Assembly: GCA_016125405.1 (NCBI GenBank) | Contig: WGLW01000006.1 | Span: forward strand, 1 to 64,000 | Direction: 5' to 3' | DNA: 64,000 nucleotides | DNA from: Alphaproteobacteria bacterium | Lineage (GTDB): Bacteria > Pseudomonadota > Alphaproteobacteria > Caulobacterales > Hyphomonadaceae | Shown here: piece after piece, positions 3,346 to 34,167 of the stretch | Numbering within the stretch: the stretch's first letter is position 1 | Layout: each line of letters starts with the position of its first letter | Notes under the pieces: generated by a model | Told to the model about the DNA's origin: nothing | Seen by the model: the letters and a program-made list of their open reading frames with translations, nothing else | Database searches by the model: none | Made by a program: the position numbers and the translations under genes

Positions 3346-4596
3346 ATGAAGCGCCTGGTTTTGAAATTCGGCGGTACGTCGGTCGCCAATCTCGAGCGGA
3401 TCGCCCATGTCGCCGAGATTGTGGCTGCCCGGTATCAGGAATGTCCGGCGCTGGCCGTCGTCGTGTCCGCGATGTCGGGCAAGACCAATGAACTCGTGGA
3501 ATGGACCAAGGAAGCCGCCGGTCCCGCGCTGCATGGGGCCGAGTATGACGACGAATACGACGTGGTGGTCGCTTCCGGCGAGCAGGTGACGGCGGGGCTG
3601 CTGGCGCTCGCCCTGCGCAAGCGCGGACTGAAGGCGCGCTCCTGGCTGGGCTGGCAGCTGCAGCTCAAGACGGACACGGCGCATGGCAAGGCGCGCATTC
3701 TCGGCTGCGACAACCCTGCGTTTCAGAAATCGGTCGACAGCGGCGAGATCGCTGTGGTCGCCGGCTTCCAGGGCGTTGACGATCACGGGCGTGTCGCGAC
3801 GCTGGGCCGCGGCGGATCGGACACCAGCGCGGTGGCCGTGGCGGCGGCGCTCAAGGCGGGGCTTTGCGACATCTATACCGACGTCGACGGCGTCTACACG
3901 ACGGACCCGCGCATCACGCCCAAGGCGCGGCGGCTCGAAAAGATCTCCTATGAGGAAATGCTCGAACTCGCCTCGCTTGGGGCGAAGGTGCTTCAGACCC
4001 GTTCGGTCGAACTGGCGATGAACCACCGGGTGCCCGTGCGGGTGCTGTCGAGCTTCGAGGGCCCCGTGGCCCAGCCCAATTCGGGCACACTGGTATGCGA
4101 TGAGGAACAGATCGTGGAAAAGCAGGTCGTCTCGGGCGTCGCCTATTCGAGGGACGAGGCCAAATTCACCCTGATCGGCGTTGACGACCATCCGGGCGTC
4201 GCGGCGATCATCTTTGGCGAACTGGCCGACGCTGGCGTCAACGTCGACATGATCGTGCAGGCGAGCGCCAAATCCGAGGGACGCCAGAACATCGTCTTCA
4301 CCGCGCCGGACCGTGATGCGGCGCACGCCGGCGCCGTGCTGGAAAAGGCGCGCGACAAGATCGGCTATCAGGGTCTCAACGTTGCGCGCGACGTCGCCAA
4401 GGTGTCGGTGATCGGCGTGGGCATGCGCAGCCATGCGGGTGTCGCCAAGACCATGTTCCAGGCGCTTTCCGCGAAGGGCATCAACATTCAGGTCATTTCG
4501 ACCTCCGAAATCAAGATTTCTGTGTTGATTGACGCGAACTATACCGAACTGGCGGTGCGCGCGCTGCATACTGCCTACGGACTGGACGCAGATTAG
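3346..4596 (+). CDS. lysC: Aspartate kinase
   Basis: This enzyme phosphorylates aspartate, the first step toward lysine, diaminopimelate, threonine and methionine, and it supplies aspartate semialdehyde (after Asd) to the carboxyspermidine route encoded further along. The 416 residues contain the kinase signature KFGGTSV near the start and GRGGSDTSA near residue 165. They end in two ACT domains (about 265-416), where lysine or threonine feedback normally acts. The length fits the monofunctional alpha-type enzyme. ptsP follows 47 bases downstream (17 bases if an earlier start is used), a common alphaproteobacterial arrangement. Confidence 0.96.
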   Translation: MKRLVLKFGGTSVANLERIAHVAEIVAARYQECPALAVVVSAMSGKTNELVEWTKEAAGPALHGAEYDDEYDVVVASGEQVTAGLLALALRKRGLKARSWLGWQLQLKTDTAHGKARILGCDNPAFQKSVDSGEIAVVAGFQGVDDHGRVATLGRGGSDTSAVAVAAALKAGLCDIYTDVDGVYTTDPRITPKARRLEKISYEEMLELASLGAKVLQTRSVELAMNHRVPVRVLSSFEGPVAQPNSGTLVCDEEQIVEKQVVSGVAYSRDEAKFTLIGVDDHPGVAAIIFGELADAGVNVDMIVQASAKSEGRQNIVFTAPDRDAAHAGAVLEKARDKIGYQGLNVARDVAKVSVIGVGMRSHAGVAKTMFQALSAKGINIQVISTSEIKISVLIDANYTELAVRALHTAYGLDAD

Positions 4597-4643
4597 AGTC
4601 GACGCGAACGAGATTGGGGCGGGGGGCCCCGAACGGAGCGGCA

Positions 4644-6935
4644 TTGAGTGATCGCGGCAGATCTGGCGACAAGGGAATGACGCCCGCCCGCCCCCCTGCG
4701 GGTGGCGGAGCCCGGCTTCTGCTCAGCCGTCTGCGGGCGCTCATGGCCAACCAGGCGCAGGACCCGCACCGCCTGGACCGCGTGGTCGAACTCATCGGCA
4801 ACACGATGGTGGCGGATGTCTGCTCGATCTATCTGTCGAGCGAGGACAAGTCTCTCCTGCTGGTGGCGACGCAGGGCCTCGCCAAGGAAGCCGTGGGACG
4901 CACGCGGCTGGCCGAGAACGAGGGCCTTGTCGGCCTGGTGTCGGCGACGGCGCGGCCGCTCCGCCTGACCGACGCCTTTTCCCATCCGCGCTTCTCCTAT
5001 CGTCCGGAGACGGGCGAGGATCCCTTCCACTCCTTCCTCGGCGTGCCGATCCTCCGCGGCGGCCGCGTGCTGGGCGTGCTGGTGGTGCAGAACCGCACCG
5101 AGCGCGCCTATGACGACGAGGAAGCCGAAGCGCTGCAGACCGTGGCGATGGTGCTGGCCGAGCTGGTTTCGGCGGCGGCGGACCAGCTGTCCTCGGGCGT
5201 GCGCCAGACGCGGCCGGTGGCGATGACCGGGCGGACGCTCAACGAGGGTCTCGCGATCGGCAAGGCGCATCTCTACGACCCGGTGGTGCCCCCCGCGCGC
5301 CTCTTCGCCGCCGACCCGGATGCCGAGGAGCAGCGGCTGAACGATGCGCTGGAGGCTCTTCGCACGTCGATCGACGCGATGCTGACCCGCGCCGGCCCCG
5401 TTCTGTTCGGTGAAAGCCGCGATGTGCTCGAAACCTATCGCCTGTTCGCCCATGATCCGTCCTGGGCGGGACGGCTTGTGGAGGCGGTGCGGAGCGGCCT
5501 CTCGGCGGAGGCGGCGGTCGACCGGGTGCGCCGGGAGCACCGGGCGCGTCTTGAAAGCGCGCGCGACGGTCTGCTGCGCGAACGCCTGCACGATCTGGAA
5601 GATCTCGAAAACCGCCTGTTGCGGCAACTCGACGGCAATGACGGGGGCGGCCGCGAGGCGCCGCCGGGCGCGGTTCTGGTGGCGAGCCGGATCGGGCCGG
5701 CCGAACTGCTGGAATACCGCGACGCTGATCTTGCCGCCGTCGTTCTGGAGGAAGCCGGCGCGGGCAGCCACGCGGCGATCGTCGCGCGAGCGATGGGCGT
5801 GCCGGCGATCGGCGGGCTGACCGGCCTCGTCACCCGGGTCGAGGATGGCGACACGGTCGTGGTCGACGGGGAAAGCGGCACGATCCAGATCCGGCCCGCC
5901 GCCGACATGGTGGCCAACTACCAGGCGCGCATCGCCATTTCCGACCAGAAGCTGGAAGAGCTGGCGCTGCTGCGGGACCTGCCTGCCAGGACGGTCGACG
6001 GGGTCGAGGTCGACCTGATGATCAATGCGGGGCTGTCGTTCGATCTCGACCATCTCGACGAGGTGGGCGCCAAGGGCGTCGGACTGTTCCGCACCGAATT
6101 CCAGTTCATGGCGTCCGAGACGATGCCGGGTCTCGACGAGCAGGCGACCTTCTATCGCTCCGTGATCGAGCGGGCGGGCGAACGGCCGGTGGTGTTCCGG
6201 ACGATCGACCTTGGCGGGGACAAGGTGGCGCCGTTCATGGGCCGCCGCGAGCGGGAAGAAAATCCGGCTCTCGGCTGGCGGGCGCTGAGGATGGCGCTGG
6301 ACCACCCCTATTTCTTCCGCCGCCAGCTTAGGGCCCTGATCCGGGCGTCGCGCGGCGGCACGCTGCGGCTGATGTTCCCCATGGTCGCAACGGTCGAGGA
6401 ATTCGACGCCGCCAGGAAGTTGCTGGACGCCGAGATGGACTGGGCGGTCAAGTTCGGGCGCGACCTGCCCAACCGCGTTTTCGTCGGCGCCATGGTGGAG
6501 ACGCCCTCGCTGGCGTTCTCGATCGACAAGCTGAAGGGCAAGGCGGATTTCCTGTCGGTCGGCACCAACGATCTGATGCAGTTCTTCTTCGCGGCGGACC
6601 GCGACAATGCCCGCGTAATCTCGCGCTATGACATTCTCAGCGCCCCGGCGATGCGCCTGCTGCTGAGGATGCGCCAGCGGGCGGACGAGGCCGGGCTGCC
6701 GATCACCGTGTGCGGCGAAAGCGCCGGGCGCCCGCTGGAGGCGTTGATGCTGATGGGCCTGGGCTACCGGCGCCTGTCGATGCAGGCGTCCCGGATTGCG
6801 CCGATGAAACTCCTTATCCGTTCGGTGGATATGTCGGCCCTGACGCCGCGCGTGCAGGCCGCCGTGGAAGGCGGCGAGGGGACCATACGTAACCAAATGT
6901 TAAGTGTGGCCCATGAATTCGATTTGATGATTTAG
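4644..6935 (+). CDS. ptsP: PEP-protein phosphotransferase of the nitrogen PTS (EI-Ntr)
   Basis: EI-Ntr takes phosphate from PEP and passes it to NPr, starting the regulatory nitrogen phosphotransferase chain. An N-terminal GAF domain (about residues 30-165) senses a signal, glutamine in studied cases. The phosphohistidine domain has GSHAAIVARAMGVPA with the active His near residue 376. The PEP-binding barrel shows LFRTEFQFM and SVGTNDLMQFFFAADRDN. The start is uncertain: TTG at 4644 has GGAG five bases upstream, ATG at 4677 has a poor site, and TTG at 4614 is also in frame. It sits just behind lysC. Confidence 0.92.
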   Translation: MSDRGRSGDKGMTPARPPAGGGARLLLSRLRALMANQAQDPHRLDRVVELIGNTMVADVCSIYLSSEDKSLLLVATQGLAKEAVGRTRLAENEGLVGLVSATARPLRLTDAFSHPRFSYRPETGEDPFHSFLGVPILRGGRVLGVLVVQNRTERAYDDEEAEALQTVAMVLAELVSAAADQLSSGVRQTRPVAMTGRTLNEGLAIGKAHLYDPVVPPARLFAADPDAEEQRLNDALEALRTSIDAMLTRAGPVLFGESRDVLETYRLFAHDPSWAGRLVEAVRSGLSAEAAVDRVRREHRARLESARDGLLRERLHDLEDLENRLLRQLDGNDGGGREAPPGAVLVASRIGPAELLEYRDADLAAVVLEEAGAGSHAAIVARAMGVPAIGGLTGLVTRVEDGDTVVVDGESGTIQIRPAADMVANYQARIAISDQKLEELALLRDLPARTVDGVEVDLMINAGLSFDLDHLDEVGAKGVGLFRTEFQFMASETMPGLDEQATFYRSVIERAGERPVVFRTIDLGGDKVAPFMGRREREENPALGWRALRMALDHPYFFRRQLRALIRASRGGTLRLMFPMVATVEEFDAARKLLDAEMDWAVKFGRDLPNRVFVGAMVETPSLAFSIDKLKGKADFLSVGTNDLMQFFFAADRDNARVISRYDILSAPAMRLLLRMRQRADEAGLPITVCGESAGRPLEALMLMGLGYRRLSMQASRIAPMKLLIRSVDMSALTPRVQAAVEGGEGTIRNQMLSVAHEFDLMI

Positions 6936-29990: not shown

Positions 29991-30020
29991 CGCCCCTGCC
30001 GAAAGGCGGGGGCGTTTTTA
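29991..30020 (+). terminator. Rho-independent terminator
   Basis: A 10-bp stem with one G-U pair (29991-30000 with 30005-30014) encloses a GAAA tetraloop and is followed directly by TTTTTA. It ends the barrel-protein transcript 25 bases after its stop, just before the convergent nudC. Confidence 0.9.
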
Positions 30021-30034
30021 TTCGCGGTAACGGG

Positions 30035-31003
30035 TCAGCCCTGATCCAGCCAGGCCATGATGACATGGTGGGCGATGGCGACCGGCATCGGGCCAAACGC
30101 CTCGGGATGACGGCCGGCCATCATGTCGGCGATTTCCTGCCGGCTGAACCAGCGGGCGTCCTCGATTTCCGTTTTGTCGACGGTGACGTCTTCGCTCGCA
30201 GCCTCGACGATCAGCCCGATCATCAGCGAGGACGGGAACGGCCAGGGCTGGCAGAACAGGTATTTGACGGCGCCGGTGCAGCGGACGCCGGATTCTTCCA
30301 GCACTTCGCGCGCCGCCGCCTGTTCGATGGTTTCGCCCGGCTCCACAAATCCGGCGAGACACGACCAGAAGCCGGGCCGCCAGGCGGCCTGACGGCCCAG
30401 CAACGCCCGGTCGCCCCTGACCACCAGCATGATCGCGACAGGATCGATGCGGGGAAAATGCTCGGTTCCACATTCGGGGCAGGCGCGTTTCCAGCCGGCT
30501 TCCTCGACGCGGGACTGCTCGCCGCAGACGCTGCAGTAGCCGTGCCGCCTGTGCCATTCGAATATCGCCCGGGCCGTGGCGGCTGCACCGCTGTCGAAGG
30601 CGTCCATCCCGCCGGCGGCGATGCGGAAATCCTCGAACACGCCAAGCCCCGCAATCGGCGAGGCGTCAAGGTTGAACGACCCGGCCAGGTTCAGCGCGAA
30701 GACCGGCGAGCCTTTTTCGGTCTCGCCCAGAAAGAGACGCGTGGCCTTTGGCGCCAGCATCCCGGCCTGCGGTCCCAGCCAGAGGATGGGGCGACCGGGG
30801 GGCAGGGCGGCGCCGATCGCCTGTGGCGTGGCCGGCGGGCCCGCTCCTTCCACCAGCGGCAGTCCGTCTCGCATCAGCAGGACGCGGACGTTGTCCGAGG
30901 CGAACGCCTTGTCCAGCCAGGCCGGATCGCGGCGATGATGGGCGGCGCGATCGATGCCCGCGCCGACAAGCGGGATGGCGCGCTGGGCGTCGTCAGATGG
31001 CAC
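30035..31003 (-). CDS. nudC: NAD(H) pyrophosphatase, Nudix family
   Basis: NudC splits NADH (and NAD) to NMN(H) and AMP and can remove NAD caps from RNA. The 322 residues have a zinc ribbon (Cys157, 160, 175, 178), a complete Nudix box at 218-240 (GFVEPGETIEQAAAREVLEESGV) and the family signature QPWPFPSS at about 252-259, which separates NudC from other Nudix enzymes. The GTG at 31001-31003 begins four bases after the TIR gene stop, with AGGA a little far upstream. An ATG at 31069 would lie inside the TIR gene and adds a non-family N-terminus. Confidence 0.92.
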   Translation of the reverse strand: MPSDDAQRAIPLVGAGIDRAAHHRRDPAWLDKAFASDNVRVLLMRDGLPLVEGAGPPATPQAIGAALPPGRPILWLGPQAGMLAPKATRLFLGETEKGSPVFALNLAGSFNLDASPIAGLGVFEDFRIAAGGMDAFDSGAAATARAIFEWHRRHGYCSVCGEQSRVEEAGWKRACPECGTEHFPRIDPVAIMLVVRGDRALLGRQAAWRPGFWSCLAGFVEPGETIEQAAAREVLEESGVRCTGAVKYLFCQPWPFPSSLMIGLIVEAASEDVTVDKTEIEDARWFSRQEIADMMAGRHPEAFGPMPVAIAHHVIMAWLDQG

Positions 31004-31007
31004 GGGA

Positions 31008-31985
31008 TCAGATCTTCCTGATGTTGGAGCGAAAGGCGCGCAAAGCGCGCCAGCCGCCGAGCATGGCATAGATAGAGAATGCGATCACCGTGAAGAAGAC
31101 CCATATCAGAATCAGTCCGGAAACGGCGCCGGCGACGTTTTCCGGCGCCACAGCGCCGGCGGCGGCGGCCGCCGCCGTCGCGATCACCACCAGGCCGACC
31201 AATATGCCGGTGGAGATCAGGTATTTGCCCAGCGCCGCGCCCACTCCCCGCCTGCGCAGATAATAGCGGATCGGGAACGCCACTGCGCCATAGAGGGCGA
31301 CCATGATCAGGCAGGCGAGCCCGATGGTCGCCAGCCGATGTCCGGCGGTCGCGCCAGCGGCGCCATCGGGTCCGAGCGCGCGGAAGACCGTCAGCCCGAG
31401 GACCGGAACCAGGACCAGCAGGTCGATCCATTTGAACGGCAGAACGTCGCGGGCTGGCACGCGCCGCCCGCCAGCAGTCATCTTGCCGATATAGACCGCC
31501 GCCGTCGCGGAGGGCTGGATTGGAAGTTCGTCGTTCGCAGCGCTGGCCGCAACCGGCGCGCCATTTTCCGGTATCGCTGCCGCGGCGGCTTTGGACGTGA
31601 GCGCAATCAGATGGTCGACCAGGTCGTCCACCTTCGAGGCGGGATCAGGCCATGCTTCGATCCAGTTGCGGTCGGCGAGGTCGTAGAGACGGGCGCCGCG
31701 CGGCTGCGTGTCTTCGATCAGCACCGGCACGATGGGCTTGCCGAGGCCGTCGGCGACCGCCAGCTCCTTCTTGAGCTGATGCGAGCCGTTGCTGGCTCCG
31801 GAAAAGAAGACGACGAGGGTGGCCGATTCCGTCAGCGCCTCGCGTGCGGTTTCACGCCAGTCCGCGTCGCCATCGATGTTTGCATCATACCAGACCGTGA
31901 CGCCGCTGCCTTCGAGGCGGCGCACGACCTGCGCCACCAGTTCCCTGTCGCTGCGCTGGTAACTGACGAAAAAGTCGAATTTCAT
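31008..31985 (-). CDS. TIR-domain protein with four membrane helices
   Basis: The 325 residues comprise a TIR domain (about 1-130; FDFFVSYQRSDRELV, GVTVWYDANIDGDADW, LVVFFSGASNGSHQLKKELAVAD). A linker leads to four hydrophobic helices at about 187-205, 218-236, 254-278 and 286-308. The Glu in LKKE (Glu74) sits where the catalytic Glu of TIR NADases lies, so NAD cleavage is possible. Bacterial TIR proteins act in phage defence, in host interaction or as scaffolds. The start is the ATG at the first TIR strand; upstream codons are not supported. nudC follows almost without a gap. Confidence 0.85.
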   Translation of the reverse strand: MKFDFFVSYQRSDRELVAQVVRRLEGSGVTVWYDANIDGDADWRETAREALTESATLVVFFSGASNGSHQLKKELAVADGLGKPIVPVLIEDTQPRGARLYDLADRNWIEAWPDPASKVDDLVDHLIALTSKAAAAAIPENGAPVAASAANDELPIQPSATAAVYIGKMTAGGRRVPARDVLPFKWIDLLVLVPVLGLTVFRALGPDGAAGATAGHRLATIGLACLIMVALYGAVAFPIRYYLRRRGVGAALGKYLISTGILVGLVVIATAAAAAAGAVAPENVAGAVSGLILIWVFFTVIAFSIYAMLGGWRALRAFRSNIRKI

Positions 31986-32133: not shown

Positions 32134-32230
32134 CTGCAGGCTGGCGGTGGACGAGCCGCTCGCCAATCCGGTCAGGTCCGGAAGGAAGCAGCCGTAACGA
32201 GTTTTGCTCGGGTCGTCGCCAGTCTGCGCC
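32134..32230 (+). ncRNA. ffs: Signal recognition particle RNA, small bacterial type (4.5S)
   Basis: The universally conserved core, GGTCAGGTCCGGAAGGAAGC at 32170-32189 followed by AGCC, contains the GGAA tetraloop and the internal loops bound by Ffh. The outer stem pairs 32136-32146 with 32217-32227 (11 bp, one G-U), giving a single long hairpin of about 97 bases, the small-type SRP RNA. With Ffh it targets inner-membrane proteins to the translocon. Location just upstream of dnaX is a frequent bacterial arrangement. The exact ends are estimated from pairing. Confidence 0.93.
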
Positions 32231-32310: not shown

Positions 32311-34167
32311 ATGGCTGCGAAGAAACCCCCGAAACCGCCGGAAGACGGGCAGGAGGCTGGTCCTGAAGATGGGCCGGCGCTGTTCGCCGAGTCCGGCGGG
32401 CCGCCGGCCTATCAGGTGCTTGCGCGCAAATACCGCCCCCATTCCTTCGAGGATCTGGTGGGGCAGGAGGCGATGGTCCGCACGCTGACCAACGCCTTCA
32501 AGACCGGCCGCATCGCCCATGCCTTCATGCTCACCGGCGTACGCGGCGTTGGCAAGACAACCACCGCCCGCCTGCTCGCCCGCGCACTGAACTACGAGAG
32601 TGACACAATCCACCAGCCTTCGATCGAGGCGTTGCAGGTGGAAGGGCGCCATTGCCGGGCCATCATCGAGGGCCGGCACATCGATGTGCTGGAACTCGAC
32701 GCCGCCTCGCACACCAAGGTCGAGGAGATGCGGGACCTCCTGGACGGTGCACGCTATGCGCCGGTTTCAGCGCGGTACAAGGTCTACATCATCGACGAAG
32801 TTCACATGCTTTCGACGGCGTCCTTCAACGCGCTGCTAAAGACGCTCGAGGAACCGCCTCCGCATGTGAAGTTCATCTTCGCGACGACGGAAATCCGCAA
32901 AGTGCCCGTGACCGTGCTGTCGCGCTGCCAGCGGTTCAACCTGCAGCGCTTCACGCCCGAGGCGCTGGCCGAACACCTCGCCAATATCTGCCGGAAGGAA
33001 AAGGCCACGGTCGCGCCCGAAGCGCTGGCGCTGATCGCCCGTGCGGCGGAAGGGTCGGCGCGCGATGCGTTGTCGATCCTCGATCAGGCGCTGGTGCAGG
33101 GCGGCAAGAGCAATGTCGGCGCCGAGGCGGTGCGCGAAATGCTCGGCCTGGCGGACCGCTCGCGCGTGCTTGATCTTCTCGACAAGGCCATCGCCGCCGA
33201 CCACAAGGCGGCCCTTGAGGAGGCGACGGCCCTGCTCGACGCCGGGGCGGATGCACCGGTGCTGGTCAAGGACCTGCTGGATGCGATGACCGAGGTGTCG
33301 CGCGCCAAGGCGCTGGGCGAGGCTTACGCCTATGCCGGTCCGGCGGACTGGGCGCAGCGGACGCAGGCCATGGCGCAGAAACTGTCGCCTGCGCAGGCCT
33401 CGCGCATGTGGAAGCTCCTGCTGCAGGGATTCGAGGATTGCACGCGCGCGCCGGACCCGCCGGCAGCGGCTCAGATGGTGGTGTTGCGCCTCGCCGCGGC
33501 TGCGGCGCTGCCGCCGCCGGAAAACGCCGGCAAGGCGCCAACCCCGGAAAAGCGGGCGGGCGCCGCGCCTGAGAGCGTCGGCGCCCGGGGGGAAAACCGG
33601 CAGGACGCGCGCAGGGCCGAGACGGCGCCGCCAGTGGCGATGGCGGTCGGCGACGACCTGCATCACGCAACGGACGGTCCCGGCAAGCGGCTCGCCTCGC
33701 TGAACCAGATCATCGCCGAGCTGGATTCCCAGCGCCGGATCGACCTGCGCTACGAGATCGAGACCTACGTCCGGCCCGCCGAGATCGACTACGGGCATTT
33801 CCACTATTCGGCGGCGCCCGGCGCACCGGTCGATCTCTCGATGAAGCTGCGCTCCTGGCTGGAAGCGACCACGCATGTCGAATGGGAGGTTATCCAGTCG
33901 GACGATGCCGGCGCCGAAAGCGCGGCCGAGCAGCGCGCGCGCAGGAAACGCGAGATCTTCGAGGCGGCCGAAGCCCATCCCCGCATCGCCGAGGCGCTGA
34001 AGGCCTTTCCCGGTTCACGCATCCTGCGCGTGGACGAACCCGGCGACGACGACCTGGACGAAGCCGCCGGCGAGACCAATGTCATACACGTGGACTTCGC
34101 ACCGCGCGATCTTGCGCCGGACCCTGTCGACTATGTCCATCCGGAACCCGAGGAGGACGACGATTGA
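32311..34167 (+). CDS. dnaX: DNA polymerase III tau/gamma subunit
   Basis: DnaX is the clamp-loader ATPase subunit and tethers polymerase cores. The 618 residues have VLARKYRPHSFEDLVGQEA, Walker A GVRGVGKTTTARLLAR, Walker B YIIDEVHML and the SRC block VLSRCQRFNL. The usual four-Cys zinc module between Walker A and the DAASHT box is missing: only one Cys remains, in GRHCRAI. A similar loss is recalled for Caulobacter DnaX. The C-terminal third (about 405-618) is the lineage-variable tau region. The ATG at 32311 is used; the frame opens earlier at 32275 without support. Confidence 0.95.
   Translation: MAAKKPPKPPEDGQEAGPEDGPALFAESGGPPAYQVLARKYRPHSFEDLVGQEAMVRTLTNAFKTGRIAHAFMLTGVRGVGKTTTARLLARALNYESDTIHQPSIEALQVEGRHCRAIIEGRHIDVLELDAASHTKVEEMRDLLDGARYAPVSARYKVYIIDEVHMLSTASFNALLKTLEEPPPHVKFIFATTEIRKVPVTVLSRCQRFNLQRFTPEALAEHLANICRKEKATVAPEALALIARAAEGSARDALSILDQALVQGGKSNVGAEAVREMLGLADRSRVLDLLDKAIAADHKAALEEATALLDAGADAPVLVKDLLDAMTEVSRAKALGEAYAYAGPADWAQRTQAMAQKLSPAQASRMWKLLLQGFEDCTRAPDPPAAAQMVVLRLAAAAALPPPENAGKAPTPEKRAGAAPESVGARGENRQDARRAETAPPVAMAVGDDLHHATDGPGKRLASLNQIIAELDSQRRIDLRYEIETYVRPAEIDYGHFHYSAAPGAPVDLSMKLRSWLEATTHVEWEVIQSDDAGAESAAEQRARRKREIFEAAEAHPRIAEALKAFPGSRILRVDEPGDDDLDEAAGETNVIHVDFAPRDLAPDPVDYVHPEPEEDDD

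Follow-up and report, generated by a model that had tools for sequence, protein, structure and literature searches.

The closest described precedent for the locus considered here joins two enzyme families that both act on NAD. In the published experiments, the bacterial TIR protein AbTir strips nicotinamide from NAD-RNA in vitro, after which NudC yields RNA with a 5'-monophosphate, and the authors of that work propose that this two-step route operates in cells (PMC10937652). They further raise the possibility that NAD-capped RNA is a native substrate of natural TIRs inside the cells that make them, with NudC following downstream (PMC10937652). As reported for the NudC family, the motif QPWPFP[SN]S perhaps confers pyridine-nucleotide specificity, and changes at two prolines of QPWPFP abolish activity in a NudC other than the present one (PMC3283747). 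Additionally, conflict systems have been described in which a TIR is linked to SLATT, a small membrane-helix module (PMC9503650). Among the titles and abstracts shown for the open-licence literature, none reports the pairing of a TIR gene with nudC.

The two enzyme families that act sequentially on NAD-RNA in the published route meet again in the window, by which we mean the whole 64,000-nucleotide stretch of alphaproteobacterial DNA that was analyzed. There is, however, a difference of kind: in the published work the two proteins were brought together in vitro (PMC10937652), whereas here their genes are adjacent and probably translationally coupled in one genome. Specifically, a gene for a TIR domain fused to four predicted membrane helices (TIR-4TM) lies immediately 5' of nudC, and the small SRP RNA gene and dnaX flank the pair (Table 1). 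The reading we place first, with a probability of about 0.38, is that the membrane TIR protein and the coupled NudC jointly break down NAD or NAD caps; the pairing could thereby connect two modes of NAD or NAD-cap breakdown.

Table 1. Coordinates of the features of the TIR-nudC locus within the window.
Feature	Position	Strand	Details and basis
nudC, NAD(H) diphosphatase, 322 aa, GTG start	30035..31003	-	NF001299, domain set, motifs
AGGAAG, candidate nudC ribosome-binding site inside the TIR gene	31014..31019	-	sequence; 10 nt before GTG
TIR-4TM protein gene	31008..31985	-	325 aa; ATG at 31985, TGA at 31010-31008; ORF call
TIR domain, residues 1-136 (Glu74 in QLKKE, DWR at 42-44)	31578..31985	-	Pfam and structural match
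Four predicted membrane helices, residues 187-309	31059..31427	-	hydropathy, predicted models
Basic C-terminal tail RALRAFRSNIRKI, residues 313-325	31011..31049	-	recognizable in 4TM and short forms
ffs, bacterial small SRP RNA, divergent from the TIR gene	32136..32230	+	Rfam RF00169, 63.4 bits
Flanking housekeeping gene, taken to be dnaX	32311..34167	+	ORF from 32275, ATG at 32311

A preliminary description of this DNA had reported a TIR domain that bears the expected Glu and is fused to four membrane helices, and each of these elements stands. To that description are added here the AGGAAG within the TIR gene and the SRP RNA gene with dnaX past it. The window protein matches Pfam TIR_2 (PF13676) at 1e-19, with 71.7 bits against a cut-off of 28, over residues 5-118; Glu74 is in place; and hydropathy and predicted models agree upon the helices. 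Hydropathy analysis locates membrane stretches at residues 187-205, 221-239, 261-279, and 291-309, all after the TIR domain, and AlphaFold2 predicts four long helices past that domain in the whole protein (pLDDT 72.8) as well as four long helices when this part is modeled in isolation (pLDDT 78.0). The same architecture is found in homologs. At one hydropathy threshold, 13 proteins of the 4TM type, including that of the window, display four stretches in eight cases, three in four cases, and two in G020, yet these proteins align across the whole module. When the four-helix part of 12 members was scanned against Pfam, the best match was 0.0069 among the 25 of 26 families listed, which do not include a SLATT model, and a Foldseek search of the four-helix model against the PDB returned nothing at 0.001, a result that is no demonstration of a new fold. 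As a single sequence, the window TIR protein reached 0.44 at best in the PDB, and a scan of genome contigs for its close relatives found none. The resemblance to the TIR-SLATT systems lies in the linkage of a TIR to a small membrane-helix module; as those systems are described, a two-helix SLATT domain is encoded in the gene neighborhood of the TIR, whereas here four helices reside within the same protein (PMC9503650).

With AbTir and other bacterial TIR NAD-glycohydrolases, the TIR-4TM protein shares the TIR fold and a Glu in the expected place. The model of the TIR domain (residues 2-131) matches AbTir (7uxu) with a Z score of 16.8 and an rmsd of 2.0 over 126 residues, and SARM1 (9mw2) with a Z score of 16.1; the top row of the search is the TIR of a Hydra receptor (Z 16.9), tied with AbTir, and the fold alone says nothing of function. 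Fold and sequence family are those of a TIR-domain NAD-glycohydrolase (PF13676, AbTir match), and so is the presence of a catalytic Glu in the alpha-C motif. E74, DWR, and QLKKE are invariant in all 13 of the 4TM proteins for which the TIR part is assembled, out of 14 4TM proteins (G029 has two, and G012 was left out as its TIR half lies off its contig), and in a profile alignment E74 falls upon the Glu in S-R-W-C-L-D-E-L of a plant TIR. Two features distinguish the TIR-4TM protein from AbTir, namely the fused four-helix membrane module and a Gln in place of a Trp. This Gln70 is found in 13 of 13 4TM proteins at the position four before the Glu, which Trp occupies in the plant TIR RPV1; a Trp there is not needed for membership among the TIR NAD-glycohydrolases. 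We take W204 of AbTir to occupy the same position. W204 is reported to influence both the activity and the product form of AbTir, and the W204A change to lower activity without abolishing it (PMC10937652), so that, with Gln70 for Trp, TIR-4TM activity may be weak or may yield linear products. The TIR-4TM protein is probably an NAD-cleaving enzyme, and the invariance of its catalytic motif in 13 of 13 4TM proteins lends the earlier proposal of such an activity the support of inference. Constraint on the protein is similar to that on its neighbor in the sole informative 4TM pair, G003 and G011 (dN/dS 0.152 for the TIR and 0.135 for nudC); in the pair G019 and G028, nudC dN/dS could not be computed and TIR dS was saturated. 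Beyond this locus, TIR_2 is matched four more times in the window genome (on C4, C16, C30, and C54) at E 1e-9 or better, in open frames of 536-735 aa.

The second gene of the pair encodes a NudC in which all of the defining features are present. It scores 200.4 bits against the NCBIfam equivalog NF001299, NAD(+) diphosphatase (cut-off 158), comprises NUDIX, Zn-ribbon, and NUDIX-like domains, and carries the Nudix box GFVEPGETIEQAAAREVLEESG, QPWPFPSS, and Cys4; its relatives of solved structure are NADH pyrophosphatases. In all of this it resembles the known NudC decapping enzyme, from which it departs in that it starts 4 nt past a TIR gene and in that one subclade of its relatives has an altered QPWPFP motif. 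Across 36 NudC sequences of the family, QPWPFP[SN]S is kept in 31, and QPWPF[A/S/N]HS stands in its place in four (G004 on L046, G007 on L063, G008 on L048, and G013 on L045), whose genomes form a single subclade with a support of 0.976. The notion that the altered position corresponds to an activity-critical proline was dropped, since the prolines of the published study are probably the first and second, and the altered one is the third of three (PMC3283747). In G003, where a 4TM TIR adjoins nudC, the Nudix box has Asp for one Glu (REIFEDAG), the sole one of 36 rows to fail the pattern, and this substitution argues against a strict NudC requirement. A separate observation concerns G034 (Hirschia SP140), whose nudC (L032:7863-8795) contains an in-frame TAG at the Gln of QPWPFP, reflecting either a sequencing error or a broken gene.

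At the junction, the TGA stop of the window TIR gene is followed on the minus strand by TCCC and then by the nudC GTG at 31003, so that the four-base interval previously noted is exact in ORF coordinates. Between TIR genes of the 4TM type and nudC, the gap is 4 nt in the window genome (G000), 1 in G010, 4 in G003, 3 in G011, 4 in G012, 6 in G020, and 25 in G023. Seven further genomes of the window genus have a shortened TIR adjoining nudC; in six of them the last base of the TIR stop codon is also the first of the nudC start codon (TAGTG), and in G004 the two are 99 nt apart. A gap of at most 4 nt or a one-base overlap, the geometry of a coupled pair, is therefore found in 11 of the 12 genomes of the genus that have a TIR here. 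Given gaps of 1-4 nt in the five genus 4TM genomes and the overlap in 6/7 short forms, the earlier claim of coupled translation is a probable one, TIR and nudC are a real, conserved, and probably translationally coupled pair, and both are probably carried on a single message. Scans for flanking signals returned no sigma-70 promoter (0.2 expected) and, 3' of nudC, a terminator-like site (29991-30008) of a kind that chance alone would give (1 found, 1.6 expected).

The last codons of the TIR gene contain a further sign of coupling to nudC. AGGA (codons AGG AAG) is found there in 11 of the 12 genus TIR genes at the nudC site, and among the 157 Arg codons of five window genes, 11 are AGG; AGGA is missing in G012, G020, and G023, and is present in G004 despite a nudC start 99 nt on. 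AGGAAG looks like a ribosome site for nudC that has been maintained within the TIR gene. Such a placement would also be expected if a self-contained membrane TIR, an NADase of stress or defense, had landed before nudC, replaced its leader, and supplied its ribosome site. According to this alternative, the gene order persists because nudC expression would suffer if the TIR gene were removed, without any cooperation between the two proteins. Passenger lock-in of this kind fits the synteny almost as well as joint breakdown does, and we regard it as very nearly as probable, though likewise short of even odds.

The distribution of the two genes bears upon both of these accounts. Hyphomonas, Hirschia, and Henriciella are all genera of the Hyphomonadaceae, and among 105 genomes of this family nudC is found in 102 (1e-30), a 4TM TIR in 13 (A1 profile, E 1e-15; two copies in G029), and a 4TM or short TIR in 20, so that nudC is usually without such a TIR, as lock-in of a passenger would allow. 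The 4TM TIR is the direct 5' neighbor of nudC in 7 of the 13 genomes (the window genome, G010, G003, G011, G012, G020, and G023). In three more, all of one genus (G034 and G028, both Hirschia, and G019), the dnaX-nudC interval contains it on the far side of the SRP RNA gene, with one extra ORF besides that gene between TIR and nudC in G028; since the SRP RNA gene intervenes, these three would have no coupled message. The remaining three, G021, G029, and G076, have the 4TM TIR elsewhere, a further point in favor of a passenger, and in these genomes nudC adjoins the SRP RNA gene without a TIR. Two members of the window genus, G002 and G014, likewise lack such a TIR in the stretch from the SRP RNA gene to nudC and have kept nudC, indicating that nudC can do without the TIR. 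With respect to the unlinked copies, the TIR-4TM genes of G029 are in tandem (L037:3335-4441 and 4465-5562), that of G021 is single (L041:8822-9919), and the same two genes, of the TauD-type dioxygenase and enoyl-CoA hydratase type as judged by first residues, lie downstream at both loci.

In the related genomes that retain the TIR-nudC arrangement, at 43-52% protein identity, the dnaX flank is also the same. A merely chance neighborhood of the two genes was rejected in view of this persistence. Adjacency does extend beyond close kin, contrary to the refuting outcome named in the preliminary description: direct adjacency is found in three genera and the shared interval in a fourth, although all of the cases lie within one family. 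The four-helix profile was found in 9 of 299 order genomes sampled, all of them Hyphomonadaceae, and in 1 of 385 class genomes sampled, the window's own; among the genomes sampled, the four-helix module is confined to the Hyphomonadaceae. A survey of 152 class genomes found TIR_2 (1e-9) in 29, nudC (1e-20) in 81, and both in 24. Wide conservation of TIR and nudC as neighbors was rejected on this evidence, as of the 24 only the window's own genome has them adjacent. In none of the other 23 does a TIR lie beside nudC, the two being on different contigs in 19 and separated by at least 65 kb of one contig in four, within a survey that includes some draft assemblies, where closeness at contig ends is possible, and that leaves TIRs weaker than 1e-9 uncounted. 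Elsewhere in the Hyphomonadaceae, nudC-ffs intervals (L075, L079, L080, L064, and L078) hold other genes in the form of large ORFs, and a TypA-like GTPase, as judged by first residues, occupies this interval in G027 and G112; the variety of genes between nudC and the SRP RNA gene indicates that the interval changes often.

The seven shortened TIRs depart from the 4TM form in a patterned manner. All seven have lost at least three helices together with DWR, and the Glu is replaced in four (by Q, Q, M, and L); hydropathy finds no membrane stretch in six and a single one, in the tail, in G004. The loss of anchor and catalytic motif together in one clade suggests that the two served one common activity and that the four-helix module exerts control over the TIR enzyme. 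The short forms also tell against the simple NAD-depletion unit of the preliminary description, as seven genomes have a TIR that is eroded about its active site and still lies beside nudC. Over four pairs, dN/dS of the short TIRs is 0.19, 0.35, 0.21, and 0.35, compared with 0.03, 0.08, 0.13, and 0.06 for nudC of the same pairs, which shows what appears to be continued selection on the short forms, weaker than that on nudC.

These short forms can be read in more than one way. The retention of an exact stop-start overlap in 6/7 of them after erosion of the active site, and constraint below that of nudC (0.19-0.35 versus 0.03-0.13), are what would be expected of a passenger held in place for the sake of nudC expression. 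However, dN/dS values well below 1 and intact frames in all seven suggest that the protein is apparently still selected, and in G004 the TIR ORF has been kept even though the 99-nt gap means that coupling is lost. Nor does a passenger readily account for the altered NudC motif in the subclade with eroded TIRs: of the four genomes with an altered NudC, three have an assembled site, and in these the TIR is without DWR and W32 in 3/3 and without the Glu in 2/3. This co-change of NudC motif and TIR amounts to a single evolutionary event and is no more than suggestive.

The same sub-lineage invites the view that the protein is a regulator with a TIR fold, whose basic tail binds or places NudC and whose catalysis is dispensable, the short forms being a stripped-down version. 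A tail of the R-A-I-R-S-F-R-S-N-I-R-K-L type and some TIR core residues do persist in the seven short forms, and the NudC motif change falls in the sub-lineage that has them. Against this, a related tail is also found in 4TM proteins distant from nudC, part of the tail DNA may double as the nudC ribosome site, and the intact catalytic motif in 13/13 4TM forms argues that catalysis matters there; we consider such a regulator quite improbable.

With regard to evolutionary history, NudC, DnaX, and PheA of 36 genomes were combined in a tree, in which every genome whose dnaX-nudC interval contains a TIR falls to a single side of a split with support of 1.0. This tree was built from the best tblastn pieces (36 NudC, 22 DnaX, 29 PheA) and, being without an outside root, is drawn rooted on a family member. 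The same side also takes in G002 and G014, which have no TIR and whose placement has a support of 0.18, and G007, which is labeled as having none but whose site was not assembled, its nudC ending at a contig edge. The simplest history would comprise one entry in the common ancestor, one shortening inside the window genus, and one loss; alternatively, there may have been separate entries on either side of the SRP RNA gene. Trees of the TIR itself depart in part from the species tree, as the unlinked copies of G021, G029, and G076 stand beside the Hirschia ones, a grouping which indicates that some transfer or movement took place. In the TIR-only tree, the Hirschia TIRs take an intermediate position, with the unlinked copies to one side and the remaining TIRs to the other (support 0.87-0.94).

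For joint breakdown of NAD or NAD caps, a sequence of events can be proposed in full. An ancestor shared by several genera of the Hyphomonadaceae would have acquired a gene for a membrane-anchored TIR NAD-glycohydrolase, inserted between nudC on one side and dnaX with the SRP RNA gene on the other. In three of these genera, the gene would have come to head a two-gene message in which nudC is second and is translated by coupling. The TIR domain, by its presumed topology, would face the cytoplasm with the four-helix module as anchor, and this module would probably gate TIR assembly. A disturbance of the membrane or envelope, the presumptive trigger, would turn on cleavage of the nicotinamide bond in NAD or NAD-capped RNA, upon which the co-made NudC would cleave the pyrophosphate in these substrates as well as in ADP-ribose-type products or caps. 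In this manner NudC would clear the products, giving mononucleotides or 5'-monophosphate RNA that decays. Of these steps, we infer the single message, the NADase activity, the topology, and the membrane triggering, and action of the TIR before NudC is suggested by analogy to the AbTir-NudC route. A more elaborate version, in which the gated TIR and NudC compose a membrane machine for NAD and NAD caps, and the stripped TIR of the sub-lineage became the partner of a motif-changed NudC, appears to us unlikely.

TIR NADases are common defense effectors, and the preliminary description had raised a role in phage defense. An anti-phage abortive-infection module merely using the dnaX-nudC locus would account for the PADLOC matches, which are weak and confined to the TIR domain; the best (1.9e-06) covers positions 16-88 of a 404-position model and so falls short of a full-length defense model. 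Thoeris ThsB is similar in having a TIR domain, with weak PADLOC matches of 5.8e-05 at best, but the TIR-4TM protein differs from it in its membrane module and in a ThsB_TIR Pfam score below the cut-off, and a ThsA partner is not among the immediate neighbors, which are nudC, ffs, and dnaX. Moreover, ORF starts and tblastn with window proteins revealed no adjoining partner sensor or obvious defense genes, and the TIR has long been settled at one locus across related genera. No TIR-4TM relatives were found in the phage, plasmid, and viral contig collections searched. A defense island was rejected as a reading on account of these last searches and the lack of recognized defense genes next door, the phage-defense proposal finds no backing in matches limited to the TIR domain, and an anti-phage module seems to us distinctly unlikely.

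Should the more elaborate version, a membrane machine of gated TIR and NudC, prove to be correct, the gene pair would be the genetic equivalent, in nature, of the two-step decapping carried out in vitro. The window genus provides, in effect, a natural experiment in which relatives without the TIR, with the whole TIR, or with a stripped TIR occur side by side.
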